Source: Lamellibrachia columna
Lineage: Eukaryota; Annelida; Polychaeta; Sabellida; Siboglinidae
Length of the DNA: 64,000 nucleotides
NCBI GenBank assembly: GCA_963662155.1
Contig: OY759274.1
Span: forward strand, 18,991,060 to 19,055,059
Direction of reading: 5' to 3'
Positions within the stretch are counted from its first letter, which is position 1; every line of letters begins with the position of its first letter. The translations under genes and the position numbers were made by a program. Shown one piece after another: positions 2,632 to 63,503 of the stretch. The notes under the pieces are model-generated. The model made no database searches and had not been told where the DNA came from. It worked only from the letters and a program-made list of their open reading frames with translations.

Positions 2632-2862
2632 AGTTCATTTGGTGATCTCTTGGATGTTCACGGGTAGCTGAACCACTGTATTGTCTGTGCTGGATATAGG
2701 CAACGAACCATGACAGGCATTTCCTTCGACCCAACAGACGATGTTGCCCATGTTTTCATAATAGCATGTAAGCTGCATGTTTATGTCGGTCGGTGTCAAA
2801 AGCTTCGCTCCGATCCAGTCGAAGCCGTACCCCCCCCCCTTATGGCTGTCACTGACCTTCAA
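2632..2862 (-). other. Conserved unexplained minus-strand open frame in the unit (also 8377-8592 in B and about 14874-15070 in C)
   Basis: A frame of about 65-75 residues stays open at the homologous place in all three units. It shares short blocks such as TDINMQLTCYYEN, GNIVCWVEGNA and SSTDNTVVQLPVNIQEITK. It has two or three cysteines and reads like part of an extracellular domain. I do not recognise the family and see no good splice sites. Retention of the frame in three diverged copies is the only argument for coding; it may be an old exon or part of a mobile element. In C it is open but has no start codon. Confidence 0.3.
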
Positions 2863-5239: not shown

Positions 5240-5327
5240 GAGGTCTCAACCGAGATAGTGTAGTATTGAACAACGTGTTGAGGCATGAACCAACTTTGGA
5301 CAAGTGGATCAAGGTGGCAAACATGAA
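5240..5327 (+). pseudogene. Kelch-repeat exon x, unit A (5' splice site deleted)
   Basis: After an acceptor ending CCATAG, the frame reads GGLNRDSVVLNNVLRHEP and TLDKWIKVANM. This is the kelch pattern of a GG doublet, a spaced hydrophobic run, then P..D.W..VA.M. Compared with unit B, about 24 bases spanning the end of the exon and the donor are missing, so the frame runs into intron sequence and stops. The exon starts in phase 1. Kelch repeats form beta-propeller blades, often in BTB-kelch ubiquitin-ligase adaptors. No BTB domain was found in the window. Confidence 0.7.
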
Positions 5328-5921
5328 AAAGTCTGCGAGCGAGACAAGATGAGTTGTTTTTAAAAATGTTATGGTCTCTTTAAATCCATGGTTCGCAATT
5401 TGAAGAAAACGAAGCAACGTGGCAAGCGTGACACGGTGAATCTGCGAGCGAGATACGGTGAGTCTTGGGGCGTGACACGATGACTCTATGAGCGAGACAC
5501 GGTGTGTATGTGAGTGAGACACGGTGAGTATGCGAGCGACACGATTTGAATTGTGTTATAAGCTATGTGATTCCTTTAAAAACATGGTTCGTAATTTGTT
5601 GAACATTATAGCAACATCAAATTTTCATACGACACGGTTGTATAAATACACAGGGACCCGCCTTGTGGATTCCCACTTGGCAAACGTCACACAGGAACTC
5701 AATATCACGCGACTACATTCTAGTACTCTCCGACAGTCACAATTGAAGGTGAAATTAAGCAATCGTGTAGAATATCATGTAATACGATGAAGTTTGGTGC
5801 TTGTTTCTGAAGGAAATACTACAGTTAGGAATTCAAATGACACTAGAACTCCTGTCAGTGTGGTAAGAAATCAATTTCCTCCATCCTGTACAGTTCTTGT
5901 ATTGTTCCGCTTTTAAGGCAG

Positions 5922-6045
5922 TGGTAGCGATGGCGTTGTTGGCCGCGTGTCTGTACGTAGGCCTACTCCGTGGTTCGGACGGAGAAAACTTCATCAGCAA
6001 TGTCTAGCCCTACTCGCCTGCCTTCAACTGTTGGCAGTCTATCAA
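5922..6045 (+). pseudogene. Kelch-repeat exon y, unit A (in-frame stop)
   Basis: The acceptor TTTTAAGGCAG follows a pyrimidine-rich stretch. The frame then reads VAMALLAACLYV, GSDGEN, and after the stop PAFNCWQSI-like residues: a second kelch repeat (LYV..GGSDG...VE.Y.P..N.W). In unit A the codon corresponding to the glutamate of VEPY is TAG. The right boundary is uncertain because no good donor follows. Confidence 0.65.
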
Positions 6046-6277
6046 CATTGTTTTTGAACAGAGATATGGCCATATTTGAGGACTACACCAGATTAAAATT
6101 TGTAGTGGCCGACTGTCAACGTATGCGTGTGACAGTGACTGTAGGATCCCTTTGCCCATGAAGACACGATGCAATTGTTTTGGCCGCCATTTGATGGGGA
6201 GCATGTTTTGCTTTTACTTTACACAAGTTACGTATTTTGTCCAGCGCGTTTATGACATAATAAATGTTGACATACTT

Positions 6278-6550
<273 letters not shown>

Positions 6551-9500: not shown

Positions 9501-11112
9501 AGATTAGAAGATTTTAAAAGAACGCAGCAAGTTTTATTGAAAGCAACTATGAACGCACACTCGGAGCCGTAATTATTCTCATATAAGAACTCAACTGGTC
9601 ATCACGTTGAATTATCACACTGTCAATGACATGGTAGTCTAGCATTTTAGCCCAACCTGCACACGTCTGGCTTAAATGCTTCAAGGTTGGTACTACTTAG
9701 GATGTGTCTGGTTGTGTGCCCAGGTATACTTTTAATAAGCAAATCGTTTGTTGGCTCAAATGTCAATGGGCGGTCCATTGCTAGTTTGACAGTCAGTGTG
9801 CCAACGAGGCGACGGACCAGCACTCGTAACAAGCCCCGACCACACCTGTGATCATGATCACTCTGGCAGGGAGACATGGGGTTGTCACGCGGGCTGTCTG
9901 GTGATAATCGTGTGTGAAAGTGGCGATTACGCGCGACGTCACCGACGACGACAAAAATATACCTCGGGGATTGTATTAATTATTCATTGAAACGGCCAAT
10001 GTGCGAGAGATCTACAAATAGAGAGCCTGACATGGAAGCCAAATGCGCGAGTCTCACGTCAAATGTGTGAGACTTGGTAGCTCTGTATGACTCTTACTGT
10101 GGGTGTTATGCCCCACCTTATTCTAGGTATCAAAGTTCTCGTGATAAAGCGGTAAAATGCTCATGAAAAGCCGGAAACGTCCTCCTCCGCTCAACTTTCT
10201 TGGCTCCAAAGACATAAAATGTGCTTAGGATGGCCTCGTGTGCAACAGATAGATCGATTTTAGTGTGAAGTTTGTTCGTTTTTTAAATTACAAAAAAGCT
10301 GCACATTTCAGCCAAAAATCGGAGGGGAAAAAAGCGGTACCCCCCCCCCCCGAATGTTGACCCCTCAGAAACAGTGCCCCGTGCCTCTCGTGTTAATCGT
10401 TCGTGCCCGAATCATGGCCGGATCCAGGGTGTCCATGAGGTGCCCGGGAACCCCTTAATTCCTCGAATCACAATGGCCCACAAACTGTTTATTACCTTGC
10501 ATTGCAATCTTAATTTCAGGATGTCAATGTTTCCCTGGGTTCCTCACTCCATGTTTTGAAAATGTGGTAAGGTCGATGTAAAACACAACAGGAGACGGTG
10601 GATATGAAATTAATATCTGATTTCGGTTTTGTGAATTAGTGGTGAACGCAAATTCCAATCTACATATATGTGTATAATATTATACTTATTTCAAAACGAC
10701 TGCATTTTCTAACCATATTTTTATAAATATGTCAGTAAAATCATAGTGGTTTATGTAACCTCTAATTTGGACCAAGGAAAATGGCTGTGGCTGAAGGATT
10801 TACCAAGTCCCAGATGTCATCACGGCCTTATAGTTTCCGGCGCCACACATATCTGTGTTACAGGTACATGCTTACACGTATGTTAAATCTAATTTCCACC
10901 GTCTTATTTTCATGACGGATTAAATTTAAAAGTGACGAAATGTCGGCGGAAAACAGTGAAATATGCCAATAATATTACATTTATTCATTTATATTTGTTC
11001 ATGGTTGCCGTGCACGCCTCTGCGCATGCGCGAGTGTGTGGTGTGCGTACGTGCATGCGTGCGTGCGTGGGCGCGCGCTCTCTAAATGTACTAATGTCTT
11101 GTTCGTCCATAG

Positions 11113-11220
11113 GAGGTCTCAACCGAGATAGTGTAGTATTGAACAACGTGTTGAGGCATGAACCAACTTTGGACAAGTGGATCAAGGTGGCAAACATGAA
11201 CAAGTCCCGTGCTAGACAAG
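11113..11220 (+). pseudogene. Kelch-repeat exon x, unit B (intact 108-nt exon)
   Basis: This is the best-preserved copy. Acceptor CCATAG, 36 codons with no stop, then donor AAG|GTGAGT at 11221. The exon starts and ends in phase 1. The translation has GGLNRDSVVL at its start and DKWIKVANMNKSRARQ at its end, a typical kelch blade ending in MN..R. It joins in phase with exon y of the same unit (G|TG, valine). Exon y of unit B has a stop, however, so the unit as a whole is probably a pseudogene fragment, unless exon x is spliced to an unbroken exon elsewhere. Confidence 0.75.
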
Positions 11221-11440
11221 GTGAGTCTGCGAGCGAGACAAGATGAGTTGTTTTTTTTAAATGTTATGGTCTCTTTAAATCCATGGTTCGCAATTTGAAG
11301 AAAACGAAGCAACGTGGCAAGCGTGACACGGTGAATCTGCGAGCGAGATACGGTGAGTCTTGGGGCGTGACACGATGACTCTATGAGCGAGACACGGTGT
11401 GTATGTGAGTGAAACACGGTGAGTTTGCGATCGACACGAT
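11221..11440 (+). repeat. Degenerate 22-bp repeat growing from the kelch exon donor
   Basis: Downstream of the donor, words of the type GCGAGCGAGACACGGTGAGTCT recur with variations (about 11221-11245 and 11329-11440; also about 5327-5345 and 5440-5545 in A, 17751-17812 in C). Each word resembles the exon end plus donor (CTAGACAAG|GTGAGTCT), so it looks like reiteration of the exon-intron boundary. Several units still contain GGTGAGT. Confidence 0.55.
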
Positions 11441-11850
11441 GTGAATTGTGTTACAAGCTATGTGATTCCTTTAAAAACATGGTTCGTAATTTGATGAACA
11501 TTATAGCAACATCAAATTTTCATACGACACGGTTGTATAAATACACAGGGACCCGCCTTGTGGATTCCCACTTGGCAAACGTCACACAAGAACTCAATAT
11601 CACGCGACTGCATTCCAATACTCTCCGACAGTCACAATGGTATGTGAAAGTAAGCACACGTTTGCAGGAATCGTGTAGAATATCATGTAATACGATTAAG
11701 GTTGGTGCTTGTTTCTGAAGGAAACGAACACACACCTGTTCACCATACTACAGTTAGGAATTCATATGAAACTAGAACTCCTGTCAGTGTGGTAAGAAAT
11801 CAATTTCCTCCATCCTGTACAGTTCTTGTATTGTTCCGCTTTTAAGGCAG

Positions 11851-11975
11851 TGGTAGCGATGGCATCGTTGGCCGCGTGTCTGTACGTAGGCCTACTCCGT
11901 GGTTCGGACGGAGAAAACCTCATCAGCAATGTCTAGCCCTACTCGCCTGCCTTCAACTGTTGGCAGTCTATCAAC
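11851..11975 (+). pseudogene. Kelch-repeat exon y, unit B (in-frame stop)
   Basis: Same exon as 5922-6045, reading VAMASLAACLYVGLL, GSDGENLISNV, then TAG at 11934-11936 where unit C has GAG. A and B share this stop, so it either predates their separation or was spread by gene conversion. The LYVGLLGG stretch looks two residues longer than a canonical LYVVGG, perhaps an old indel. Confidence 0.68.
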
Positions 11976-12029
11976 ATTGTTTTTGAACATAGATATGGGC
12001 ATATTTGAGGACTACACAACACTTATGCT

Positions 12030-12249
12030 GTGTCCAGATTAAAATTTGTAGTGGCCGACTGTCAACGTATACGTGTGCCAGTGACTGTAGGATCCCTTGC
12101 GCATGAAGACACGATGCAATTGTTTTGGCCGCCATTTGATGGGGAGCATGTTGTGTTTTTACTTTCTGGAGAGAGAAAATTACACAAGTTGACGTATTTT
12201 GTCCAGCGAGTGGATGACATAATAAATGTTGACATACTTGATTGTCGGA
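12030..12249 (+). other. Open segment after kelch exon y in unit B, function unknown
   Basis: The frame reads through RLKFVVADCQ, GEHVVFLLSGERKLHKL and VDDIINVDILD without a stop and has the composition of real protein. Unit A has a shorter, frameshifted version (about 6090-6280), and unit C has lost it. It might be a third exon of the kelch gene, but no kelch GG doublet or splice site is convincing. Confidence 0.3.
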
Positions 12250-12600
12250 CGTGTGTGTGTGTGCGTGTGCGTGTGCGTGTGCGTGTGCGTGTGCGTGTGC
12301 GTGTGCGTGTGCGTGTGCGTGTGCGTGTGCGTGTGCGTGTGCGTGTGCGTGTGCGTGTGCGTGTGCGTGTGCGTGTGCGTGTGCGTGTGCGTGTGCGTGT
12401 GCGTGTGCGTGTGCGTGTGCGTGTGCGTGTGCGTGTGCGTGTGCGTGTGCGTGTGCGTGTGCGTGTGCGTGTGCGTGTGCGTGTGCGTGTGCGTGTGCGT
12501 GTGCGTGTGCGTGTGCGTGTGCGTGTGCGTGTGCGTGTGCGTGTGCGTGTGCGTGTGCGTGTGCATGTGCGTGTGTCTGTATGAGTGCGTGCGTGCGAGT
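12250..12600. repeat. (GTGTGC)n hexanucleotide microsatellite, about 53 copies
   Basis: Nearly perfect six-base repeat with one A near its end, purely alternating purine-pyrimidine. It occupies the place of (TG)100 in unit A. The long VRVRVR and CACACA frames across it are artefacts. Confidence 0.97.
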
Positions 12601-12827
12601 GTATGTGTGCTGTGTGTGCGCGCGCGCGTGTGTGTTATTGTACAGTGCAAGCAGAGCAGTAGAGTATGTTTGTGTGCAGTGCTGTCTGCGTGTGCTTGTG
12701 CGTGTGTGGAGTTTTTGTGTTTATATACATCTGAATGTGTATTGTTTATTACCATTGATGTCGATAGAAACGTCAGGTGCTACGATGGTTGGGATGTGGT
12801 TGTGAGTGTACTACAATGGTTGGACTG

Positions 12828-13090
<263 letters not shown>

Positions 13091-16000
13091 ATATGTTTAT
13101 GTTATGTGTTATTCGTTTTCGTGTAATGCCAGGAGATTCCCAAATAAAAGCCTTACAATGTAACAATAACTGTGACACTAGTTTGTCAATCAAAATATTA
13201 AAATAATGCACAGATAAAAGAAGAGACCACAGTGAAGCGAGTGACGCTTTGCCATTCTGCCTTGGGCTCGGGCAATTAGTGGAGCACTTTACAGATTTGG
13301 TGTGTGGGACCTCCTCCACAACACAGGATCTCTTTTGGTTGCTTTATTGAACTATTCAAGGGAGAGTGTATGTCGACCCCTAAGTCATTGTAGTCTCCCA
13401 CCCGACTACTGTGACATAACCCTGTGTGTTATAGTTCCCAACCTATTTACTGTAGGAATTACCTTTTGCTTATATACTATGTCATGACTAAAAAGACGAA
13501 TTTGTGGTGTGTTTCTTTCAAACATGTTCAATCTAAATTTAGCTGAAGTGGCAAAATCTAATGAAAATATTAAAAATATTTATTCATTAGAATGTTTGTT
13601 ATATGCAATAAATCATATGGCGATGCAACATACATGATAAAAAATGCGTATATAATATTACTAATCCATTTTATTGATATTGAATTATGCATATTCAATC
13701 ATAGCTATGTACATCCGCCGGAAGTGGTCAACCTAAGATGGCCCCTACAACAGACAAGCAGATACATGCTCTTTATTTGGCCCTTATATGTACAAGTATT
13801 AGCATTACAAATATAAATATATCACACATATCAAATAAAGGGAAATATACAACGACGGCGCTTTATCATGCTGCTATACCCAGAATGGGCTGTATGGAGT
13901 TAATAATCTGAAATTTACGAATCTGTCACCATTAATTATCACTAGTAATAAACATATGCCCCAGTACATTAATTGCCGCTCCATTTAAATGTGCAACAGT
14001 GGTATATATCATATCTGTATACAATACCAAACTAACATTTATGCAGAAACCTAGCTTTTCATCATATAATGGGAATTAAAGCCGACATTGTTTGTAGATG
14101 ATCCCTTAGCACGACTCGAAGAGGCACACAGGACAGTTAGTCCGTTGATGAACATCTTTCATGTATCGTGAACAGCGACAATAACAAATATTTCCTAGAA
14201 AATAGTACACAATATCTAAAACGGGACGTGCAATGCAGAGTTATTTCACCAATTGATGGAAATATTATGTAGAAAATAAATAACATGACACAATATTGTA
14301 ATGTATGTGGATTCGCTATAACGTAGTTTAAAAATAAATAAACAAACTCAGTCATTTGAACAATCAATGGATAAACTAGAAAACTTCAAACTATGAAGTT
14401 AAAGGAAGTGTATTGCATGATGGAATAAACTTCCATCGCCTAGCTGCTGTTATACACATCACTCGATCAGTACCAACCTCTCAGAGTGTCGTCGTGCCAG
14501 CCATGAGGGATATGCCACCCGTGCACGGCGCTGTTTCCTGCTAGTCACCACGTTCCTGTGCACACATAAAGAACACTTTGTTTTTGTTCGTCTTTGTCTT
14601 GGAACACCTTTTCATTCTTCACATATTTTGTCCCGACTGGCTGTCAACTTCACGCACAACACCGCATCAAGCATACAGTGTGTGTCATAGGCCAAGAATG
14701 TGAACTGAATCCGAAGCCATGCAAGCCACCAAGTGGGGTCTTTCACAAATGGGTCTTGTCAGGTGCGTCAACAGAAGCACCAGCTTCGCCTGGAATGTTA
14801 TGTAAGAAACTAATTTGAAGAACGTGCTGGTCGGCCAACAGTAGTAAGCCCTTGTTGGACTAGCCGCAGTTCATTTGGTGATCTCTTGAATGTTCACGGG
14901 CAGCTGAACCACTGTATTGTCTGTGCTGGATATAGGCAACGAACCATGACAGGCATTTCCTTTGACCCAACAGACGATGTTGCCTGTGTTTTCACAATAG
15001 CATGTAAGCTGCAGGTTTATGTCGGTCGATGTCAAAAGCTTTGCTCCGATCCAGTTGAAGCCGTACCACCCCTTTGTCGCTGTCGCTGATCTTCAACTGG
15101 TCATTCGGAAGCGCTGTTTCAGTTGATAGGGTATTACAATCAGAATTGGGGTTAATTACATTGTAATTAGAACATAGGCTGCCCGAAATAACCAGTGGCG
15201 CCTCTGTTGCATGATATACCTGCTGATTCTTGTGGCGAACAAGTCATCCATGTTAATTTGAACAGTTACTTTCAGAAGTTCTGTGTTAGAAATCTTTTGT
15301 GGCCAGAAAAATGGCATGATGTTTCAAAGATATGTTGTGTGGAAGGTTGAAAATTATCTCTCATCTGCTTCAGTCAAACGCCAGCATTCTGAAACATATT
15401 GCAGAGTGGACGAGTTATGATGGCAAATAATTTACCTACATATTACATGCGTACCACACCTTGGTTGTCTCAGGGACAAAATAACCCTTTTTCGACCTTT
15501 TCTAAAACAAAATATCTAATAACGTTATAAACTTTAATGATGGCGAGCGTAATTCACAGCAACGTAACAGCCACACACATGGAGACATCCAGTTAACCAC
15601 AGTTTGACACAATTTTTTTCATTGTATGTTATTTCCTTAAAGCTTATCATGTCTATGACCAGAGCTGCCATGTTGTGTAGAGGAACATGCGAGAGATATT
15701 GGCAGGATCGAAACACTGAAAAAGGGTGTTATATTTCCCAAAAACTTGGGCACCAGATGAAAGCAATTCTAGACATTCAAATTTCTATGGGGGACAGCTT
15801 TTTATAATACACTGGAAATAATTGACAGATTGATAAATCTTTCATTATGTATGCCATTGCTGTTTATATAAATACGGGACGAAATATGTTCAATTGTTCT
15901 GGAACAGTTAAGATAACAGCATATTGATATCTGATAATTCCCAATGTGTCATACGTATCAGTCTTCTGGGACCCCAAACACATTACACATAAACAAGATT

Positions 16001-17535
16001 AGAAGATTTCAAAAGAACGCAGCAAGTTTTATTGAAAGCAACTATGAACGCACACTCGGAGCCGTAATTATTCTCATATAAGAACTCAACTGGTCATCAC
16101 GTTGAATTATCACACTGTCAATGACATGGTAGTCTAGCATTTTAACCCAACCTGCACACGTCTGGCTTAAATGCTTCAAGGTTGGTACTACTAGGATGTG
16201 TCTGGTTGTGTGCCCATTTATACTTTTAATAAGCAAATCGTTTGTTGGCTCAAATGCCAAAAAAGGGCGGTCCATTGCCAGTTTGACAGTCAGTGTGCCA
16301 ACGAGGCGAGGGACCAGCACTCGTAACAAGCCCCGACCATACCCGTGATCATGATCACTCTGGCAGAGAGACATGGGGTTGTCACGCGGGATGTCTGGTG
16401 ATAATCGTGTGTGAAAGTGACGATTACGCGCCACGTCACCGACGACGACAAAAATATACCTCGGGAATTGTATTAATTATTCATTGAAACGGCCAATGTG
16501 CGAGAGATCTACAAATAGAGAGCGTGAGATGGAAGCCAAATGCGTGAGTCTCACGTCAAATGTGTGAGACTTGGTAGCTCTGTATGACTCTTACTGTGGG
16601 CGTTATGCCCCACCTTATTCTAGGTATCAAAGTTCTCGTGATAAAGCGGTAAAATGCTCATGAAAAGCCGGAAACGTCCTCCTCCGCTCAACTTTCTTGG
16701 CTCTAAAGACATAAAATGTGTTTAGGATGGCCTCGTGTGCAACAGATAGATCGATTTTAGTGTGAAGTTTGTTTGTTTTTTAAATTACAAAAAAGCTGGA
16801 CATTTCAGCCAAAAATCGGAGGGGAAAAAAAGCGGTACCCCCCCCGAATGTTGACCCCTCAGAAACAGTGCCCCGTGCCTCTCGTGTTAATCTTTCGTGC
16901 CCGAATCATGGCCGGATCCAGGGTGTCCATGAGGTGCCCGGGAACCCCTCAATTCCTCGAATCACAATGGCCCACGAACTGTTTATTACCTTGCATTGCA
17001 GTCTTAATTTCAGTATGTCAATGTTTCCCTGGTTTCCTCACTCCATGTTTTGAAAAAAAGGTACTTGATGTGGTAAGGTCGATGTAAAACACAACAGGAG
17101 ACAGTGGATATGAAATTAATATCTGATTTCGGTTTTGTGAATTAGTGGTGAACGCAAATTCCAATCTACATATATGTGTATAATATTATACTTATTTCAA
17201 AACGACTGCATTTTCTAACCATATTCTTATAAACATGTCAATAAAATCATAGTGGTTTATGTAACCTCTAATTTGGACCAAGAAAAATGGCTGTGTCTGA
17301 AGGACTTACCGGGTCCTAGATGTCATCACGGCCTTATAGTTTCCGGCGCCACACATATCTGTGTTACAGGTACAGGCTTACACGTATGTTAAATCTAATT
17401 TCCACTGTCTTATTTTCATGACGGGTTAAATTTAAAAGTGACAAAATGTCGGCGGAAAACAGTGAAATATGCCAATAATATAACATTTATTCATTTATAT
17501 TTATGCATGGCTGCGGTGCACGCCTCTGCGTATGT

Positions 17536-17569
17536 GCGTGTGTGTGGTGCGCGTGCGTGCGTGCGTGCA

Positions 17570-17606
<37 letters not shown>
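17536..17606. repeat. (GTGC)n tract upstream of kelch exon x in unit C
   Basis: About 70 bp of tetranucleotide GTGC repeat, longer than at the homologous sites in A (5139-5205) and B (11025-11082). It sits in the presumed intron only about 35 bp before the exon x acceptor. Confidence 0.95.
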
Positions 17607-17642
17607 GCTCTCTAAATGTACTAATGTCCTGTTCGTCCACAG

Positions 17643-17750
17643 GAGGTCTCAATCGAGATAGTGTAGTATTGAACAACGTGTTGAGGCATGAGCCAACTTT
17701 GGACAAGTAGATCAAGGTGGTAAGCATGAACAAGTCCTGTGCTAGACAAG
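17643..17750 (+). pseudogene. Kelch-repeat exon x, unit C (in-frame stop, splice sites kept)
   Basis: 108 nt with acceptor CCACAG and donor AAG|GTGAGT, as in unit B. The tryptophan codon of the blade (DKW) is TAG here, and a nearby substitution gives KVVSM instead of KVANM. The exon is otherwise alignable over its full length, so decay is recent relative to the duplication. Confidence 0.72.
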
Positions 17751-18226
17751 GTGAGTCTACTAGCGATACACGGTGAGTCTGCGAGCGAGACACGGTGTGT
17801 ATGCGAGCGATACAATGTGAATTGTGTTATAAACTATGTGATCCCTTTAAAAACATGGTTCGTAATTTGCGGAATATTATAGCAATATCACATTTTCATA
17901 CGACACGTTTGTAAAAATACACTGGGACCCGCCTTGTGGATTCCCACTTGGCAAACATCACACAGGAACTCAACATCACGTGACGACATTCTAATACTCT
18001 CCGACAGTCACAGTGGTAGGTGAAAGTAAGCAAACGTTTGCAGGAATCGTGTAGAATATCATGTAATATGATGAAGGTTGGTGCTTGTTTCTGAAGGAAA
18101 CGAGCACACACCTGTTCACCATACTACAGTTAGGAATTCAAATGACGCTAGAACTCCTGTCAGTGAGGTAAGAAATCAATTTCCTCCATCCTGTACATTT
18201 CTTGTATTGTTCCGCTTTTAAGGCAG

Positions 18227-19645: not shown

Positions 19646-20630
19646 ACAAGAGTGCTACAATCAACTTCACTCCTCTATCGGGTTACGCAGTAAAACTTGG
19701 GCACACAAAGACCTTGGTCCAATCTACTCCGTCCTTCCAACTCCCAACGAAAGGATGTTGGATGACTTACTGGGTATCTGTGGTAATTGTCACACCTCCG
19801 CACGTCGCTGAAGATAGTCCATCGCTGTCTTTATCACTTTTGTTTTCTGCTGCAGTACTTTGTGCATTTTGGATTCATTCTCTACAAGGGGAATTGTTTC
19901 GTGCGTGCGTGCGTGCGTGTGTGTGTGCGTGCGTGCGTGCGCGCGCGTGCATGCGTGGAAGAGTGTGAGCATAGCTATACCAGTGACGTACCTCGCATGT
20001 ATTCTTGCAAGTATTCTCGGTTGTAGAGGAAAGCGACAGTACATGTTAGACTTGTACCGAAGACGACTGGAAGCAAACAGAAGAACATCACTCGTTGTGT
20101 CGTACGTATACGTGTGTGTGGACTCGTAAGAGGGGATGTCTTTGGTGAATGATGAGCATCGTTGGACATTTTTTGGAGGTATGGATATAATTATACGCTT
20201 CACTGACCTCGCCAGCTGTCCTATATTATGTGTTCGAGTTTGCAAAAGGACGGGGCATTATAAAAAAGGAAATATATTACATCAGCATTGAAAAAAGGTC
20301 TTACTATTTGTATTTTCGTACTATGGTTTTACCACCAGAATACCAAGAACCCACTGCAACAGCCTTGCACTTGGTGACACACATATAATTGTCAGCATAT
20401 CAATTCAGTTACTCTGCGACCCCACGGTCGGGTTGTCTGTTGAAATGTTTTTCGAAATTCACCCGCTATTACCCTTTCTACGAACAATCGAATTACCCTT
20501 TGTATTCAGCTGCCGACCACGCTACGCGAAAAATTACGTACAATAGTTCACAACATCATGCGTGTTTTCTTTGATTTTCCAAAGTTACGTCATACAAGGC
20601 AAGGCGTCGCTACACGTTACTATAACAAGA
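19646..20630. other. No gene recognised; short TGCG tract
   Basis: Contains a (TGCG)n tract at about 19902-19950 and otherwise unremarkable sequence. No convincing exon was found on either strand. Confidence 0.4.
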
Positions 20631-20631
20631 T

Positions 20632-21887
20632 TTAACAAGATTTAACAAGATTTGCCATCCAAGCCAAAGGCCCAGATGGCAAGTGGACAAGGAAGCCATT
20701 GGCTTATCGAGAGTCCAACAATGTTCACCTACTTATAACCCGCCCTCCTGAGATATGTGTCAACCTTGTTTTTAAACATATTCACGCTGCTAGCAGTTAC
20801 ACAATCTGTAGACAATTTGTTCCATTCATTTATTGTCCTCTGTGAGAACGAGTGCTTCCTGATGTCCAATCTACATTGATCCTTTACTAATTTTACCTCA
20901 TGTCCTCTAGTTCTGCTATCCTTCTTGAGTGAGAAAAACATATTTCTATCAATAATTTCATACCCATTCAATATCTTAAAAACTTCAATCTGATCTCCTC
21001 TTAACCTCCTTGTCTCTAGAGTTGTTAAACCACATTCTTTCAGGCGTTCTTCATAACTAAGGTCTCTAAGTTCTGGAATCATTTTAGTTGCTCTCCTTTG
21101 TATGCGTTCAAGCGTATCTATATCCTTCTTACGATATGGTCTCCATGCTTGTATACAGTATTCTAAATGAGGTCTAACTATTGCTTTATAAAGAGGTATA
21201 ATTAACTTTTTTCCCTTGTATGTTATGTTTCTTCTAATCAATCCAAGAATTTGATTACCCTTTGAAGCTGCAATACCACACTGCTCTGAAACTTTCATAT
21301 CAGCGCTTATTGTAACTCCTAAGTCCTTTTCTTTTACAGTAGTACCCAGAACAGTATCTCCCATTTTATAGTTTACATTCAAGTTCCCATGTCCTGTATG
21401 TAGGCATTTACATTTCCCAAAATTGAACAGCATCTGCCATTTCTCAGACCATTTCACTAATCTGTCTAGATCGTTTTGTAAATGTTGTTTATCACCATCA
21501 GTATTAACCTTTCTAAACAGTTTTGTGTCATCCGCAAATTTCAGTACGTTACTTGTTATACTGTCGTCCAAGTCATTGATATAAATTAAGAATAATATAG
21601 GTCCTAGTACTGACCCTTGAGGTACCCCACTCAAAACCGATTTCCAATTTGAAACTTCTCCATCTACTACAACTCGTTGTCTTCTGTCAGTCAGCCATTG
21701 TTCTATCCAGTCAGTTATGCTATCCCCGATACCATGGGCTTTTAATTTAAGTAGCAATCTTTGATGTGGCACTTTGTCAAAAGCTTTCTGAAAATCTAAG
21801 TAGATAATATCTACTGGCGATCCCACGTCTATCCACTTAGTGATTTCTTCCAAAAAACATAACATATTTGTTAAGCATGACCTTGCT
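20632..21887 (-). mobile_element. 5'-truncated CR1-type non-LTR retrotransposon
   Basis: Minus-strand element whose 3' end (left) has two to three copies of an ATCTTGTTAA-type tail and a hairpin at 20654-20680. The open frame at 20729-21865 encodes 378 residues identical in translation to the last 378 of the intact copy at 51.6-54.5 kb. It includes the reverse-transcriptase motifs YLDFQKAFD, PQGSVLGP and FADD. Identity stops abruptly near 21887, a typical 5' truncation from incomplete reverse transcription. Lacking the endonuclease, it cannot move by itself. No target-site duplication is clear. Confidence 0.93.
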
Positions 21888-21889
21888 GT

Positions 21890-24780
21890 CAGTATTACGT
21901 CGTAAATTCAGGAAGCCATCAAAATATTGACTGGCAACACCATGTAACAAGGCATTGGTGGATATTTATGCTATAAAGTTGTGTATCTTGACATTTTCCA
22001 GTCACGTACGAACTACCAAATCATCCCGTCCGGAGGTTGGGCATTTTTGCTAGTTTCAATAATGTTGAATGCCAGGTACGTTTCCCAGGTGGGACGTCTT
22101 CGGCCATACCAAGATAACACGGACAGCATTGCAACATCACACAGCATAATTATGTGGCCAAGAAATAATGAAGAAAATAATTTGAACTGTTTTATAATTA
22201 AATATGTCAGAATGTTTTATCGTATATAAAGACGCATGTCGACAAATTGGGCCAACCAATTTCCACAGACCACCCTGAGGATTCTCAGCGAGTCTAAATA
22301 GTTGCTCCACCTAGCGGATCTAACGGAGACAGTGCGACTACAATACTGATATATAGATACCATTGCAGTTTACCCTAAAGTCTTACGAATTTTCTTGAAG
22401 TTTATGCTCTTACGTGCTTAGGAGACATTCCTTATGGGATACTGCACGCTTTTGTCAAATTATTCGAATACCAAATAACCGTTTAGAACACGTTCGAAGA
22501 ACGACTGTCACGAATAGTTTAGCTGTACGCAGATAGCAGCGGCAAAGTAAATGTGAGAATGCGCATTAAACAAGGTAACGCAGATCAGCATACAGGTTCG
22601 TTTGTAGTCTTACGGATTTATGTTACCAGTCTCGCATGTGTGCAGTGTGCACTACTCAGGATTGGCACGTAAGTGGGGAGGAATGCTCAATTGCGCATGC
22701 TGACTCTAGCGACTAATGGAATTTGTATCACGCGCCCATGGCAAACTGCCCAGGCAGGCGGAGGAGTGTCACTACGTCATTTGCTGTAATATTGCGAGTT
22801 GAAACATATTCTAAGGCAGTTCATGTAACAATTCTAGCTAAATCGGTAAAAAAAATTCTACTTTCATGTTATAAATGAAAATTCACGGCCTTTTCACGAG
22901 AATTACAAGGAAAATAAAGGCTAATTGCTAAATGTAAGTGAAACGAAGAGATGTTAGCTCAAAAACCGAAGCACCTAGATTCGTTGCCGTCATCTACGAT
23001 AGATGGCAGCACTATACGGTACTAATATAATGCAGTTTCATGGACTTCAGAGAGAAATTTTTACGTGTACACGGTAGGATCAAACTTTGAACAAATAGGC
23101 ACCATGATTGTTAGGCCAGTTTTATTTCACTGTGACTGCCAAATCAGGAAAATGGTTTTGGAGGATAAATTTAATAAATAACCCTTAAATGCCACAATCA
23201 TTTTATTCTATATTAAATGTATTCCTGATAATATTTATAATCGAAAATTAAAATTCTATTTCAGAAATAGCCCCCCCCAACCCATTAACTATGGGTGACA
23301 CATATTAATGTCTGCCTGTTTCTGTTTCACACTTGTTGTGCAATTTCATTCATCCCACATTGCCTGTGTCTTTCTGAAGAGACACTAACAGCCTGGTATC
23401 TAAAGGAGTGACAAAAATTACGAATATATACTAGTACTACTAGTTATCATTAACATTATGTCTGATCACGTCGAAAATAAATCTGCGGATTGGAAAACAC
23501 TCGTAATTATATAAAATTATTAACACTTACTCGCACTTTATTGCATTCTTACATTTCGATTTACTATGGGTCATATATATTCTGACGTTGAAGCACAATT
23601 GTGCTTATTGAGGTGGAACTATATTGTAATCGTAGTGATAAGTCACAATGGTAACGGTAACCCAATTTACTAACCTGGTTTCGGCTCGTCGCTTCCTACG
23701 CATCGCTCTGCCCTCTGATATCTGCCGTTCCCTTGTCGAAGAATAGTCTGTAGATGCATAGCCATATGCGGAAAAATCTATCTAAGATGGAACGGTGTCT
23801 TAAGCTTTGACCAAGCATGACATCTTGACGCTCACCGTCTGTCACCGTCGTCGCATCACATACGTCTTTTGTCTTGTAATCTGCATCGGAAAAGTGGTCT
23901 GTCCCAGAGCCTGCGGCTAGCGGACACGTCAATTTCCGCATTTGCAACCACCTTTTCCGCTGCAAATCCTTCCTCGGAAGTCGATAAAACGTTTTTTCCT
24001 TGCATTTGTAGTACTAGTTGATATATCCAGGAGCCGTCCAGTGCACACCAGTTTTCTTTTTTTCGATTTTCCATGCGTTTCGGCCGTTTTTCCGAGAGGT
24101 AATGCGTCGTCGCTCATATTGATTTACTGTGTGAAAGCGGTGCCTTGGAGCTCGTATTCAAACCACTCATATTATATATGCATATTGTATTCTTGTATAA
24201 TCAGTTGGCTTATTATAAAAGCTTGTATACAAACATACATCTGACTAGTACTTTTGTCTTCAGCAAACTAGCCACGATTCCGAGTCAATAACATTAGCAA
24301 GTAGCATTGTCCCACATAAAGGATATTACAAAATTACCGTGGCGTTGCGCCCATCATATAAAGGTGATATATACTGTAAATGGTATGTTATTATGTTTGG
24401 GCTATGGTTGTTCGAGTGCTTCACCCCCCCCCCACCCCCCAAGGGCTCTGCCTCGTGTAAACTTGTGACGCCCCTGGAGTCACATTAAGAAAATATGGCC
24501 ACGCATGAACTTGTGGCGCCCACTGGAGTCTGTATTGGGGAAAAACAATTTATGTTTGCCATATCAAATATAAGCAACATGAAAGGGAACGCGCATTCGC
24601 TTAATCCTATTTATAAAAAACAAAACCATGTTAGCACTGAGTGTCCATAATTCATGCGCTAGGCAACACGTGTCGCTGTTATTCGAATAACTGTTTCTAT
24701 TAGTCCTACAGGCACGCCACTGAGAACAAATGTTCAATGTCCCTTGTTCGTGACAACGTACAGCTAATACGGTGCATCGG
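21890..24780. other. No gene recognised (about 2.9 kb)
   Basis: AT-rich sequence with short unremarkable frames. Minus-strand frames at 23696-24117 have no family resemblance I can name. Around 24420-24530 a CTTGTGRCGCCCMCTGGAGTC-like word occurs twice beside a poly-C run. Confidence 0.35.
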
Positions 24781-51429: not shown

Positions 51430-51507
51430 TCTAGAAGTCTGCGTTCTCTGGTGTGAAGCTTGTGCATTGATGGTGCAGTGGTGACTCACCTCAGTTCCTA
51501 ACATGAC
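51430..51507 (-). mobile_element. Continuation of the Gypsy protease region, left of the CR1 insertion
   Basis: The minus-strand reading VSHHCTINAQ follows where Gypsy proteins have L.LV..HC.I. It joins the 54.5-kb fragment to within a codon of the expected spacing once the CR1 element is taken out. Confidence 0.6.
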
Positions 51508-51512
51508 GTTTA

Positions 51513-54485
51513 ACAAGATTTAACAAGATTTGCCATCCAAGCCAAAGGCCCAGATGGCAAGTGGACAAGGAAGCCATTGGCTTATCGAGAGTCCAACAAT
51601 GTTCACCTACTTATAACCCGCCCTCCTGAGATATGTGTCAACCTTGTTTTTAAACATATTCACGCTGCTAGCAGTTACACAATCTGTAGACAATTTGTTC
51701 CATTCATTTATTGTCCTCTGTGAGAACGAGTGCTTCCTGATGTCCAATCTACATTGATCCTTTACTAATTTTACCTCATGTCCTCTAGTTCTGCTATCCT
51801 TCTTGAGTGAGAAAAACATATTTCTATCAATAATTTCATACCCATTCAATATCTTAAAAACTTCAATCTGATCTCCTCTTAACCTCCTTGTCTCTAGAGT
51901 TGTTAAACCACATTCTTTCAGGCGTTCTTCATAACTAAGGTCTCTAAGTTCTGGAATCATTTTAGTTGCTCTCCTTTGTATGCGTTCAAGCGTATCTATA
52001 TCCTTCTTACGATATGGTCTCCATGCTTGTATACAGTATTCTAAATGAGGTCTAACTATTGCTTTATAAAGAGGTATAATTAACTTTTTTCCCTTGTATG
52101 TTATGTTTCTTCTAATCAATCCAAGAATTTGATTACCCTTTGAAGCTGCAATACCACACTGCTCTGAAACTTTCATATCAGCGCTTATTGTAACTCCTAA
52201 GTCCTTTTCTTTTACAGTAGTACCCAGAACAGTATCTCCCATTTTATAGTTTACATTCAAGTTCCCATGTCCTGTATGTAGGCATTTACATTTCCCAAAA
52301 TTGAACAGCATCTGCCATTTCTCAGACCATTTCACTAATCTGTCTAGATCGTTTTGTAAATGTTGTTTATCACCATCAGTATTAACCTTTCTAAACAGTT
52401 TTGTGTCATCCGCAAATTTCAGTACGTTACTTGTTATACTGTCGTCCAAGTCATTGATATAAATTAAGAATAATATAGGTCCTAGTACTGACCCTTGAGG
52501 TACCCCACTCAAAACCGATTTCCAATTTGAAACTTCTCCATCTACTACAACTCGTTGTCTTCTGTCAGTCAGCCATTGTTCTATCCAGTCAGTTATGCTA
52601 TCCCCGATACCATGGGCTTTTAATTTAAGTAGCAATCTTTGATGTGGCACTTTGTCAAAAGCTTTCTGAAAATCTAAGTAGATAATATCTACTGGCGATC
52701 CCACGTCTATCCACTTAGTGATTTCTTCCAAAAAACATAACATATTTGTTAAGCATGACCTTGCTTTAAGGAATCCATGTTGAGATGAATTTAATAATTT
52801 ATGCTTAACGAGGAAGTCCACCATATGGTCTTTAATTAACCTTTCTAATAATTTACAAATCACTGACGTTAAACTCACTGGTCTGTAATTCTCTGACTTA
52901 TTTCTCGAACCCTTTTTAAATAATGGTATGATGTTTGCTTCTTTCCATTCAAACGGAACAACTCCCTCTTTTAATGACAAGTTGAATACTCTTGCAAGTG
53001 GTATACTGATTTGATCTACTGTTTCCATTAGTAATTTTGGAGGAATCCCATCCACTCCCGGTGATTTGTTATCCTTCATTGCCCTTATTTTCTTAGCTAC
53101 CAATTCTGGAGTTACAACTAACGGTCCTAAATATTCAGATTTAGCCCCCTGAAATTTAGCATCAGCAACTGGTAATGAACTAATATCTTCCTTGGTAAAC
53201 ACTGAACTGAAGTAACCATTTAGGTCTTCCGCCATTAAAAACCCCTGTGATATTATATTTCCAGCACTGTCTTCTAGAGGTCCAACCTTGTCTTGTACGT
53301 TTTGTTTACTCCTGACATATGCATAAAAACTCTTGCTGTCATTTTTTATGTTACATGCCAGTTTTTGCTCATAGCTTCTTTTAGATTGTCTGATTTCAGT
53401 TGTAGCTGCATTAAGTGCCTCTTTGTATTTTGCATAGTCTTCTTCCTTTCTGGTACGCCTATAAACCCTCCACATAGTTTGTTTTAGCATTATTTTTCTA
53501 ATAGCCTCTTTTGACAAATGTTTCTTTCTACACCGTTTTCCTTGTTTTCGGAAGGGAACAAATTTATCGATGATACTCTCAATTTCATATTTAAGAATGT
53601 TCCAGCATTCAATTGCGGTCTTATTCATCAGCATGTTATTCCAATCTAGCTGTGCTAAGTATTTTCTCATATCTTTGTAGTTACCTTTGTGGAAGTTTCT
53701 CTTGTACGTTTTCTTATTTTTACTTTCTGATTTTACATTGATGTCAAAATGTATTTGATTATGGTCACTATTACCCAATGGTTCAAATATTTTTACATTG
53801 TCCACTAATTCTTTTTGTGATGACAAAACTATATCTAATACATTTTCTCCCCTGGTTGGTTCTAGTACGTGCTGAGTAAGAAAGCTATCCTGGATTAAAC
53901 ATAGAAATTGTTGATCCTCAATCCCTGTGCTCTCTAGAGAATTCCATTGTATGTGTCCATGGTTAAAATCTCCCATTATGATACATTCCCCTTTACTAAC
54001 TTCCTTTATAGCGTTTTTTATTTTTGTGTTGTCCTCTTCGTTTATGTTTGGACTTCGGTAAACTAATCCAATAGTTAATTTTGAATTTCCTGAAACAATT
54101 TTGCACCAAACAGCTTCATCGCAATCTGCTTCCCTTTCTAGTTTTATTTCATAAGCCTGAATAGATTCTTTAACATATAAAATAACTCCCCCGCCCCTTC
54201 TTCCTATTCGATCTTTCCTAAACATTACGTATCCTGTCAGTCCTAATTCAGCATCTGTAATATCTATGTTGGCCCATGATTCAGTTATACCAATTATGTG
54301 AGGGTCAATATCTTCTACCATAATGTTTAATTCGTTTTTCTTATTTACTATGCTCCTTGCATTTAAACATACGCATATATAACCTTTTTCAGAGATGTTT
54401 TTCGGATGATTTGATATTGGTTTATCTGTGCTAGTGGCCTCTTGTTCTGCTTGAGACACCTCTAGGTAACCCCCCTGCACTTCTA
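51513..54485 (-). mobile_element. CR1-type non-LTR retrotransposon with intact endonuclease/RT
   Basis: Nearly complete minus-strand element with one 957-residue open frame (51607-54480). APE endonuclease: LNARS (N40), ITESW (E67), GDFN (D171) and NSDHN (S238-D239-H240). Reverse transcriptase: NYRPVSLTS at 531, YLDFQKAFD (D603), PQGSVLGP at 661 and FADD at 689-692. All catalytic residues are in place. The 3' end has a hairpin (51532-51558) and an ATCTTGTTAA tail. No ORF1 is present and the frame opens within about 2 codons of the left boundary, so it is probably 5' truncated. GTTTA flanks both ends (51508-51512, 54486-54490), a possible short target duplication. Together with the identical partner at 20.6 kb this indicates recent activity. 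Confidence 0.93.
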
Positions 54486-54486
54486 G

Positions 54487-54780
54487 TTTAGACCAATCAC
54501 TGCAGGACCTTCTACATCAACTATGTAGAACGGTGTGTCATCCATGAAGACCTGTTCTAGCTACATGGAATGTTCACAATACCACGACTCTTCATCGTTG
54601 TACTATTGTAAGCTGTCAGTTTCGCATATGCAGCAGTAATGGCGATTTCACGAATTGGAAAACCCTCAGACCTAGCTGGTCAGGTTACATTCTTCGGAAT
54701 GTGCTCCAGTATCTACTTTAAGTCGTAGGTTGTGTATTCCAGGACGATTGTGTAGTTTCACATTCACATGTGCATAGGAG
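54487..54780 (-). mobile_element. Ty3/Gypsy aspartic-protease remnant, split by the CR1 element
   Basis: Reading the minus strand from about 54780: KLHNRPGIHNLRLKVDTGAH (DTGA is the retroviral-type protease catalytic motif), KLTAYNSTTM, then FYIVDVEGPAVIGLN. Stops and a frameshift show decay. The frame breaks exactly where the CR1 copy begins and picks up again at 51.5 kb. Confidence 0.8.
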
Positions 54781-58439: not shown

Positions 58440-58835
58440 AAGGTTCGCTGTTGTAGTTTTCATTGATCCAGTGTTTCCTATAATTGTAGATGCTTAGTGG
58501 ATAATTCCTTAAATGTTCATTTTGCATCTTTGAAAGTACGATGTCGTCTGATATTGTAGTATATATTGTCTATTTCTGGTGGGAATACTTGTCATTTATT
58601 AACATAGTATTTCATATCCGTGATACCTTGAACACATACAGACCATAGTAAGACTTTTGTATTTGCTTAAACATTGTTTACTTGACAACAAAGTTTGCAT
58701 CAGTCTCAGCAGTGTAAGTGGCTATCGACCGGGGCCTTGTGCTAACAAATACAACACCAGGGATTGATGTAGACAGAAGCCACAGGTGACAAACTGTGCT
58801 TTATTTGAGAACACTAGCGTCACATATGTGCACTT
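58440..58835. other. No gene recognised
   Basis: AT-rich spacer between the hAT element and the 57-bp array. Confidence 0.35.
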
Positions 58836-58837
58836 AG

Positions 58838-59273
58838 CTTCATACAATCTGGAGTCACTGTAGCTACTGACGACCAGTTCTAATACTCCAGTAGCTTCAT
58901 ACAATCTGGAAGTACTGCAGCTACTGACGACCAGTTCTAATACTCCAGTAGCTTCATACAATCTGGAAGTACTGCAGCTACTGACGACCAGTTCTAATAC
59001 TCCAGTAGCTTCATACAATCTGGAAGTACTGCAGCTACTGACGACCAGTTCTAATACTCCAGTAGCTTCATACAATCTGGAAGTACTGCAGCTACTGACG
59101 ACCAGTTCTAATACTCCAGTAGCTTCATACAATCTGGAGGTACTGCAGCTACTGACAACCAGTTCTAATACTCCAGTAGCTTCATACAATCTGGAGGTAC
59201 TGCAGCTACTGACAACCAGTTCTAATACTCCAGTAGCTTCATACAATCTGGAGGTAATGCAGCTACTGACGAC
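58838..59273 (+). repeat. 57-bp minisatellite, array 1 (about 7.5 copies)
   Basis: Unit includes AGCTTCATACAATCTGGAAG, TACTGCAGCTACTGACGACC and AGTTCTAATACTCCAGT. 57 is a multiple of three, so frames run through it on both strands. Copies are over 90% alike. Confidence 0.96.
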
Positions 59274-59361
59274 CAGAACTGGAACTGGGAAAATCCGACG
59301 TCGACGACATGTGTTGGTATATTGCTGACGATGTCCTCTTTCTATTACCAGAGCCAGAAAA

Positions 59362-60154: not shown

Positions 60155-60493
60155 CATAATCTGGAGGTACCACAGCTACTGATGACCAGTTCTAATACTC
60201 CAGTAGCTTCATATAATCTGGAGGTATTGCAGTTACTGATGACCAGTTCTAATACTCCAGTAGCTTCATATAATCTGGAGGTACCGCAGCTACTGACGAC
60301 CAGTTCTAATACTCCAGTAACTTCATATAATCTAGAGGTACCGCAGCTACTGATGACCAGTTCTAATACTCCAGTAGCTTCATATAATCTGGAGGTACCG
60401 CAGCTACTGACGACCAGTTCTAATACTCCAGTAGCTTCATATAATCTGGAGGTACCGCAGCTACTGACGACCAGTTCTAATACTCCAGCTGCA
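60155..60493 (+). repeat. 57-bp minisatellite, array 2 (about 6 copies)
   Basis: Same unit and orientation as array 1, with fixed differences (CATATAATCTGGAGGTACCG in place of CATACAATCTGGAAGTACTG). The + frame reads as a 19-residue repeat with NLEVPQLL and TSSNTPVAS, ending in a stop 30 nt later. No evidence that it is translated. Confidence 0.95.
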
Positions 60494-61261: not shown

Positions 61262-61372
61262 TCATAGGTTTGCAGGGGGCACTGTCAAGATGCCAGTTGG
61301 TCTTAGTGCGTCTATGCCCTTGTGCAGCACACAGACTTTCTGGTAGCCGAGCTGCACCAACGCATTGGCAAA
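61262..61372 (-). CDS. TBCK: TBCK-like protein, last coding exon (rhodanese C-terminus)
   Basis: Acceptor GGTTTCAG, then 36 codons and TGA: FANALVQLGYQKVCVLHKG, then DALRPTGILTVP and ANL. This matches the C-terminal end of TBCK (TBC1-domain kinase-like protein). There the rhodanese-like domain closes with FA..LV.L...VC.L.GGI...KPTG.LT.P. The exon starts in phase 0 and joins the exon ending at 63344. TBCK combines a pseudokinase, a Rab-GAP TBC domain and a rhodanese domain, and acts in endosomal/mTOR-related traffic as part of the FERRY complex. The rest of the gene lies beyond the right edge of the window. Confidence 0.82.
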   Translation of the reverse strand, partial: FANALVQLGYQKVCVLHKGIDALRPTGILTVPPANL

Positions 61373-63343
61373 CTGAAACCAGACATATTGTAATCACAAA
61401 GAAATATTTAATGGTTAAACAGAAATATATGTAATATAATCCTGTTAATAGCACATAACTCAATGAATGTAATAATTTATTTTCATATTGCAATTATGCA
61501 AATATAATGTTTTTTAATATATACAAAATACACAAAATATAAACAAACAAAATTAGCTGCATCAAAGTAATGTCTAAACAACAACATTTGCTGTCACAAC
61601 CACTGCCATGCACACACGCACGCACGCACGCGTGCACACAGGGAGAGAGACATACAGACAGACAGAGATACATCTACCAGTATATTGTGTTGAATTTTGA
61701 GGCCACTGTTTTTATTATATGATGCCACCCCCATTCAACCCCCGACTGACCTGCATGGTGCACTTGCCCCGACTGACCTGCATGGTGCACTTGCCCCGAC
61801 TGACCTGCATGGTGCACTTGCCCCGACTGACCTGCATGGTGCACTTGCCCCGACTGACCTGCATGGTGCACTTGCCCCGACTGACCTGCATGGTGCACTT
61901 GCCCCGACTGACCTGCATGGTGCACTAGCCCCGACTGACCTGCATGGTGCACTTGCCCCGACTGACCTGCATGGTGCACTAGCCCCGACTGACCTGCATG
62001 GTGCACTTGCCCCGACTGACCTGCATGGTGCACTTGCCCCGACTGACCTGCATGGTGCACTTGCCCCGACTGACCTGCATGGTGCACTTGCCCCGACTGA
62101 CCTGCATGGTGCACTAGCCCCGATTGACCTGCATGGTGCACTTGCCCCGACTGACCTGCATGGTGCACTTGCCCCGACTGACCTGCATGGTGCACTAGCC
62201 CCGACTGACCTGCATGGTGCACTTGCCCCGACTGACCTGCATGGTGCACTAGCCCCGACTCACCTGCATGGTGCACTTGCCCCGACTGACCTGCATGGTG
62301 CACTTGCCCCGACTGACCTGCATGGTGCACTAGCCCCGACTGACCTGCATGGTGCACTTGCCCCGACTGACCTGCATGGTGCACTTGCCCCGACTGACCT
62401 GCATGGTGCACTTGCCCTGACTGACCTGCATGGTGGACTTGCCCGGACTGACCTGCATGGTGCACTTGCCCCGACTGACCTGCATGGTGCACTTGCCCCG
62501 ACTGACCTGCATGGTACACTTGCCCCGACTGACCTGCATGGTGCACTTGCCCCGACTGACCTGCATGGTGCACTGGCCCCGACTGACCTGCATGGTGCAC
62601 TTGCCCCGACTAACCTGCATGGTGCACTAGCCCCGACTGACCTGCATGGTGCACTAGCCCCGACTGACCTGCATGGTGCACTTGCCCCGACTGACCTGCA
62701 TGGTGCACTTGCCTCGACTGACCTGCATGGTGCACTTGCCTCGACTGACCTGCATGGTGGACTTGCCCGGACTGACCTGCATGGTGCACTTGCCCCGACT
62801 GACCTGCATGGTGCACTTGCCCCGACTGACCTGCATGGTACACTTGCCCCGACTGACCTGCATGGTGGACTTGCCCGGACTGACCTGCATGGTGCACTTG
62901 CCCCGACTGACCTGCATGGTGCACTTGCCCCGACTGACCTGCATGGTACACTTGCCCCGACTGACCTGCATGGTGCACTTGCCCCGACTGACCTGCATGG
63001 TGCACTTGCCCCGACTGACCTGCATGGTGCACTTGCCCCGACTAACCTGCATGGTGCACTAGCCCCGACTGACCTGCATGGTGCACTTGCCCCGACTGAC
63101 CTGCATGGTGCACTAGCCCCGACTGACCTGCATGGTGCACTTGCCCCGACTGACCTGCATGGTGCACTTGCCCCGACTGACCTGCATGGTGCACTTGCCC
63201 CGACTGACCTGCATGGTGGACTTGCCCGGACTGACCTGCATGGTGCACTTGCCCCGACTGACCTGCATGGTGCACTTGCCCCGACTGACCTGCATGGTGC
63301 ACTTGCCCCGACTGACCTGCATGGTACACTTGCCCCGACTGAC
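61373..63343 (-). other. Intron of the TBCK-like gene, mostly one 27-bp minisatellite
   Basis: 1,971-nt intron. Its first 1.6 kb (right part) is entirely the 27-bp array; the last 0.37 kb before the acceptor is ordinary AT-rich sequence with a small CGCA/GA tract near 61615-61670. Confidence 0.8.
61738..63343 (-). repeat. 27-bp minisatellite made of exon end plus 5' splice site, about 60 copies
   Basis: On the minus strand the unit is GTCAGTCGGGGCAAGTGCACCATGCAG (written in pieces: GTCAGTCGGGG, CAAGTGCACC, ATGCAG). The same CGGGGCAAGTGCACCATGCAG ends the TBCK exon. Every unit therefore repeats the last 21 bases of the exon and a new CAG|GTCAGT donor. There are no length changes: the phase is constant over 1.6 kb. 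Variants include GGGGCTAGTG (creates TAG in the TBCK frame), CCGGGCAAGTCC, CAG|GTTAGT, and one CAG|GTGAGT at about 62264. Variant order repeats in blocks, showing higher-order duplication. Confidence 0.95.
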
Positions 63344-63503
63344 CTGCATGGTGCACTTGCCCCGACTGCCCACCACAGCCTTCACCTGCACTTTGTGGGA
63401 GTTGAGAATGTGGACGGAGGGAGAGGGCTGCAACTGTCCGTCAGGGCTGAAGGCATTCTCAAAGGGGATGTTGATGCTGCTCGGAACTGTGCCGCGCATG
63501 AAG
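63344..63503 (-). CDS. TBCK: TBCK-like protein, penultimate coding exon (rhodanese domain)
   Basis: Acceptor CCCACTCCCAG. One base completes a split codon, then 53 codons: FMRGTVPSSINIPFENAFS, PDGQLQPSPSVHIL, KVQVKAVVGSRGKCTMQ, ending CAG|GTCAGT. The core FxRG.VP.SINIPF and VVG.RGK are rhodanese-fold signatures as placed in TBCK. Joined to the last exon it reads VVGSRGKCTMQ-FANALVQLGY with no gap relative to the family, which supports use of the first donor. No catalytic cysteine loop of active rhodaneses is evident, as expected for a TBCK-type domain. Confidence 0.82.

Follow-up and report, generated by a model that had tools for sequence, protein, structure and literature searches.

How is an exon joined to its neighbour when its own 5′ splice site is repeated about sixty times in the intron that follows, and how could such an intron arise? 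Both questions are raised by the 64,000-nucleotide stretch of DNA analysed here (the window; C14:18991060-19055059 of an 880-Mb assembly). On its minus strand lies the penultimate exon of a TBCK gene (exon 22, 160 nt, 63344..63503), which encodes part of the rhodanese domain, begins after the acceptor CTCCCAG/C (a slash marks a junction) and ends ATGCAG/GTCAGT. The last intron (61373..63343, minus strand, 1971 nt by our exon placement) is largely taken up by a 27-bp minisatellite (61740..63368, minus strand), and beyond it the last coding exon (61262..61372, minus strand), recognised from the sequence and the homologue alignment, reads FANALVQLGY...PPANL followed by TGA. Tandem Repeats Finder assigned to the array a period of 27, 60.3 copies, 96% match and 0% indels. 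A direct scan yielded 60 donor junctions of the form CAG/GT(C/T/G)A(G/A)T, their last exon bases running from 63344 down to 61751 with a spacing of exactly 27 nt in 59 of 59 intervals and with CAG/GT intact in 60 of 60, so that the count of about 60 tandem donors 27 bp apart in the initial annotation holds. That annotation had also correctly described a 27-bp unit made of exon end and donor, and an array filling the intron from the exon's own donor; the exon bases shared with the unit are however 25 (63344-63368), not 21, the remainder being intronic, and the lower end of the array is 61740, not 61738. With its 25 exon bases and the donor, the unit spans a real exon-intron boundary, the end of the exon being fixed by 22 homologous proteins.

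The array comprises ten unit types in a non-trivial order. All 60 genome-wide matches to a pattern of 1.5 units, allowing up to 3 mismatches, fall inside it, and the reversed pattern gave 0 matches genome-wide under the same settings; since the unit occurs at the TBCK array alone, a dispersed repeat family was ruled out. Nor do we read selection into the constancy of CAG/GT, whose five positions are without change, yet with a chance of ~0.13 for this by our own arithmetic, given about ten distinct variants. A 631-aa open frame through the array on the plus strand was rejected as coding since the period of 27 accounts for it. Just past the array in the last intron, an AATAAA at 61711-61716 is a possible cryptic polyadenylation signal, and two related 57-bp minisatellites (58835-59276 and 60156-60488), 0.9 kb apart, lie just downstream of TBCK. 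Elsewhere in the window, positions 767-17778 hold direct duplications at ~6 kb spacing, 90-95% identical and present about three times, along with long (AC)n tracts, while 51607-54516 and 20729-21907 contain open frames of the non-LTR reverse-transcriptase type, the former a 969-aa frame that includes endonuclease and RT domains. The segments 20623-21887 and 51499-52765 are 99.8% identical over 1267 bp, which makes a recent copying event likely. Searching the 64-kb window against Rfam (gathering threshold) and for tRNAs gave no match.

The gene was assigned to TBCK on several grounds. Exon placement was guided first by a human TBCK sequence and then by homologues as well, with upstream DNA added to the window, and gave an intact-looking gene of 23 exons in order on contig C14; at least one further exon, between numbered exons 6 and 7, is absent from this list, and the joined exon string loses frame there and at the misplaced end of exon 20. 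A rhodanese fragment assembled from two exons passes the Pfam cut-off (25 bits versus 22.2; PF00581), the match running across the junction. From 7988 candidates scored in a homologue search 1224 proteins were retained; among the 120 of these that were listed, the best identity was 67-68% and none was near-identical, and the 22 taken from the 120 for alignment are 61-68% identical to the sequence studied here. In a tree of 33 rows this sequence forks with Capitella and one further row at 81/96, below the mark for firm support, and lies outside the molluscs (100/99), with the other annelid, Owenia, placed elsewhere, beside Lingula; on this basis the host is probably an annelid or a closely related spiralian. 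The earlier assignment to TBCK is thus borne out, as are the exon end and phase proposed at 63344 (CAG/GTCAGT), since the protein junction there matches all 22 homologues. None of the 22 carries a repeat unit inserted at SRGKCTMQ/FANAL; the lancelet P0032 and the scorpion P0088 each have a single additional residue six positions upstream of it. Since all 22 homologues lack the unit at this point, and collinearity with them is kept by the exon-proximal donor and no other, 63344 is the ancestral donor.

The exon 22 array is not the only one of its kind in the gene. Across the 39.6-kb TBCK stretch Tandem Repeats Finder detected 26 merged tandem arrays covering 46% of the DNA, and five of the 26 span splice junctions, namely the donors of exons 9, 14 and 22 and the acceptors of exons 10 and 19. 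The array at the exon 9 donor (C14:19082266-19082938) has ~14 units of 47-48 bp (48 in its far part), five of which, including the real one, keep CACCAG/GT(A/G)A; that at exon 14 (C14:19069440-19069525) offers 4 donors CAG/GTGAGT at a period of 23 bp; and that at the exon 19 acceptor (C14:19059791-19060091) has 8 copies of 38 bp. At exon 10, the array (C14:19075082-19081778, or L004:183-6879) holds 126 copies of a 53-bp unit in 6.7 kb. Its unit consists of the acceptor and the first 37 exon bases, and it sits upstream of its exon, so that it is the mirror image of the exon 22 array. The acceptor is present in 106 exact copies of TTTTAG/TTATG, and 126 sites, the real one included, lie within 3 substitutions of a 20-mer; here as at exon 22, units keep their splice signals. 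The exon preceding exon 10 likewise has its donor inside an array. By our own sums the decoys, that is the copies beyond the real sites, come close to 200 in TBCK (59 + 4 + 3 donors and 125 + 7 acceptors, 198), or to 178 if for exon 10 the exact TTTTAG/TTATG copies alone are counted.

We compared the placement of these arrays with 5000 random layouts, leaving out the unlocated exon and with the end of exon 20 off by one base. Eight of the 26 arrays cross a TBCK junction or have an end no more than 5 nt from one, versus 2.8 expected (P=0.0026), where the 5-nt limit was picked after the data had been seen and limits of 0, 3, 10 and 20 were run too; arrays spanning a junction number 5 of 26 versus 2.3 expected (P=0.07). 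Array ends therefore cluster at the junctions of TBCK, while spanning taken alone is without clear excess. The adjoining gene, putatively FBXW7, had no apparent array spanning an exon in 7 exons as far as these were inspected, and arrays there stop a few bases short of two acceptors (one of the distances being estimated from frame). One of the arrays beside this neighbouring gene, of 26 bp in 5.8 copies (L008:9161-9309), halts three bases before an acceptor.

Junction arrays were also encountered in other genes of the genome. From 35 TBC and 77 myosin-head matches we obtained 108 places, put them in order by a fixed-seed shuffle and read the first 12, each extended by 400 bases in both directions; acceptor arrays lay beside 2 of the 13 exons so sampled, some of which come from the same gene. 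Both adjoin myosin exons, one with 5.8 copies of a 22-bp unit (L030:283-409; TTGTCAG/TGTTG) and the other with 9.1 copies of a 45-bp unit (L036:535-942; GTTGCAG/GCCATTGGCAATG). A hand-picked pair of places that match the same myosin stretch (C6:44937057 and C6:44937549) was rejected as an array since its members are separate exons, each with introns of its own; this region (L025, C6:44936700-44937900) holds two alternative versions of one myosin exon in tandem, which are probably mutually exclusive exons. On contig C8 an 81-nt exon, 26 residues of which match human UVRAG (E=1.4e-4), is flanked on both sides (L017:5697-10000), by an acceptor array of 14 copies of 114 bp before it and a donor array of at least 51 copies of 53 bp after it, and only 5 of its bases are left uncovered between the two. 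This UVRAG-like exon was one among five candidates picked by a donor-motif scan of 88 arrays drawn from 15 arbitrary stretches and other non-TBCK DNA. In that scan a donor match of 8 or 9 out of 9 was found in 5 of the 88 arrays (of which three are copies of a single segment) versus 1.8 in single-base shuffles, and acceptor-like motifs in 6 versus 4.8. No broad enrichment of splice motifs is thus seen, so that the majority of arrays fall outside the junction type. The raw material is nevertheless plentiful, since tandem repeats cover 30% (range 3% to 71%) of 15 arbitrary 10-kb stretches, taken at position 3,000,001 of C1-C15, as well as 46% of the TBCK stretch. In this genome the junction arrays found so far comprise four at donors and five at acceptors, so that both types of boundary are represented.

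The initial annotation knew of no described gene with an array of duplicated donors, a statement that does not stand, since both the human IFI6 gene and the mirages of lancelets precede this case. In IFI6 (6-16) a minisatellite with a 12-bp unit is placed at an exon end. It supplies multiple donors (Turri, Cuin and Porter 1995, as cited in PMC4526556 and PMC2572611), and two of its downstream units reportedly act as such (PMC4526556); IFI6 and TBCK are alike in that minisatellite units offer splice donors, and differ in that downstream use is reported for the former whereas the TBCK donors are known from sequence. Lancelet mirages are described as minisatellite-like tandem repeats lying over exon-intron boundaries, both 5′ and 3′ (PMC3087553, PMC3902484), in Adh3, the globins BflGb6 and BflGb9, troponin C and PGBD5 (PMC3087553, PMC3902484; Canestro et al. 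2002 as cited there). The length of a mirage can vary between haplotypes (PMC3087553), and those of the globin, Adh and TnC genes are reported without disturbance of splicing (PMC3087553, PMC3902484). As in the arrays described here, the unit spans a real junction, both boundary types occur, many units keep AG/GT, units are homogenised and several genes are affected, and the unit lengths reported overlap those in TBCK (10-72 bp in Adh3). The differences lie in copy number (60 and 126 in TBCK versus 6 or 3 units in the accounts of BflGb6), in the presence here of five arrays in one gene and of an exon with arrays on both sides, and in the host, whose TBCK groups with the annelid Capitella, at modest support, and not with the lancelet. 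The TBCK array thus probably belongs to the mirage kind already described, with a copy number far above that of the lancelet globin case and, probably, in a non-chordate host.

Two further systems are more remote. The Rogers model, as discussed in PMC3087553, derives introns from tandem duplication of AG/GT proto-splice sites; the duplicated units here likewise hold AG/GT, but the 27-bp units of TBCK have no pyrimidine tract before AG, and no new intron is shown. Intron 1 of earthworm metallothionein, also an annelid gene, is reported to contain large minisatellites and has GTYAGK donors, but its monomers average about 180 bp, and the available portions of that account do not describe arrays over a splice junction (PMC12783039). 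Among the literature matches listed there was no such junction array in annelids or molluscs.

We consider it likely that the array is of the mirage kind, made of tandem copies of the last 25 bases of the TBCK exon with its 5′ splice site, and that its 59 extra donors are silent decoys, exon definition being predicted to use the copy that touches the exon and no other. Such an array may have begun with a slip or an unequal exchange that duplicated the exon-intron junction. The duplication would have been nearly neutral, since the mRNA is unchanged as long as the exon-proximal donor serves, and further unequal exchange would then have enlarged and homogenised the array. The same process may have given rise to the acceptor arrays elsewhere in TBCK and to those beside the two myosin exons and the UVRAG-like exon. 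Choice among near-identical sites would be positional, the site nearest across the exon pairing with the exon's other end. For this explanation speak the exact 27-nt arithmetic, the retention of CAG/GT in every copy and the uniqueness of the unit to the locus; against it may be set the downstream repeat units that are reported to serve as donors in IFI6 (PMC4526556). The predicted use of the exon-proximal donor is based on collinearity of the protein with its homologues and on minigene data from human.

Could the real donor instead be chosen for its strength? Its predicted U1 pairing at exon 22 is -7.5 kcal/mol, which most decoys equal, and the junction of unit 41 (62263..62264, minus strand), the sole decoy with CAG/GTGAGT, betters it at -11.7. 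At exon 9 all four intact decoys have a better predicted pairing than the real donor (-8.2), one at -8.4 and three at -11.1. Since the real donor is not the strongest in the exons tested, strength fails as an explanation of the choice; position could, on these predictions, provide one. Masking of the decoys by RNA structure was likewise rejected, as a 226-nt fold had z=0.45 relative to shuffles and the probability of being unpaired was 0.0072 for the real donor versus 0.0011 to 0.0226 in the 16 decoys computed. Nor is proximity alone the whole rule, since an in-phase donor-like site within the exon, CAG/GTGAAG at 63386, lies 42 nt before the real donor and hence nearer the acceptor, with slightly better predicted pairing (-8.4).

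The published data that bear on a positional rule are human. When minigenes with long introns offered two identical donors, the upstream one is reported to have been used exclusively under exon definition (PMC9225289); exon 22 too is flanked by long introns (1971 and about 2280 nt), from which we predict that its decoys are silent. In the human transcriptome, within exon classes of the same size, the upstream donor preference is given as only 29-44% in table footnotes of the same paper (PMC9225289). For human 3′ splice sites the preference for the upstream site is reported as weakened, not reversed, under exon definition (PMC9225289); since it persists, acceptor arrays pose a harder problem than donor arrays do, and the 125 acceptor copies upstream of exon 10 are a real puzzle.

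The first alternative, unlikely as we judge it, is that the array serves to diversify the protein, as the initial annotation had proposed. Our junction scan confirms the arithmetic of this proposal: units 1 to 8 past the real donor (63128..63343, minus strand) are in frame and free of stops, so that each end is a candidate donor and the eight extra donors from 63317 to 63128, which together with 63344 precede the earliest in-frame TAG (unit 9, 63113..63115, minus strand), could lengthen the rhodanese domain internally by 9 to 72 residues of VSRGKCTMQ repeats. The period is a multiple of 3, and IFI6, with two downstream repeat units reported as donors (PMC4526556), offers a parallel. However, the periods of the nine junction arrays are 27, 47, 23, 53, 38, 22, 45, 114 and 53, of which three are divisible by 3, the chance level, so that frame does not look selected. 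Moreover, TAG occurs in 10 of the 59 full units (9, 11, 26, 27, 38, 41, 43, 46, 51 and 53), and GKCTMQ meets FANAL in all 22 homologues with no inserted repeat unit, two having the single extra residue six positions before. The periods and the stops in particular make protein diversity unlikely as a function, and we do not uphold it.

Next in plausibility, and improbable in our judgement, is that occasional use of downstream donors gives transcripts with premature stops, the length of the array thereby tuning the level of TBCK through nonsense-mediated decay. Donors past the first unit with TAG would indeed carry an in-frame stop, and the predicted pairing of unit 41 with U1 is the better one (-11.7 versus -7.5). 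Cross-exon proximity nevertheless predicts use of the first donor, and use of unit 41 would make the exon longer by 1080 nt (63344 to 62264). We think it very improbable that the 60 donors act by binding U1 snRNP in bulk, so as to keep the last intron from being polyadenylated prematurely or to titrate U1. The array does present 60 near-identical U1 sites, with the AATAAA at 61711-61716 just past them, but that hexamer is common in AT-rich introns and an abundant snRNP is unlikely to be titrated by one intron. Acceptor arrays of the same build (126, 14, 9, 8 and 6 copies) cannot act in this way, so that such a role would leave the class unexplained. We give almost no credence to an assembly artefact in which a few real units were multiplied, given the ten unit types in non-trivial order, the unique and intact flanks of the array, the similar arrays on C5, C8 and C13, and an assembly in which 15 large contigs make up about 879 of 880 Mb.

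Returning to the arrays as mirages with silent decoys, a wider generalisation can be put forward as tentative, possible rather than probable. A sizeable share of the exons of this spiralian (2 of 13 sampled) would adjoin from several to more than 100 copies of their own splice site, with ~200 decoys in TBCK, and the spliceosome would take the exon-proximal copy by position and with near-absolute fidelity at donors and acceptors alike, a rule stricter than the human cross-exon rule and one that would open nearly half of a gene to invasion by minisatellites. Provided that the decoys are silent, the arrays offer a natural test of how one of many near-identical sites is selected by the spliceosome, the same gene having 60 donors in one of its introns and 126 acceptors in another; the donor case fits the published exon-definition minigenes, whereas the acceptor case cannot be derived from the human results reported there (PMC9225289). 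The arrays also bear on the growth of introns, on gene prediction, where long open frames run through exon-derived arrays, and on the spread of mirages beyond the cephalochordates.
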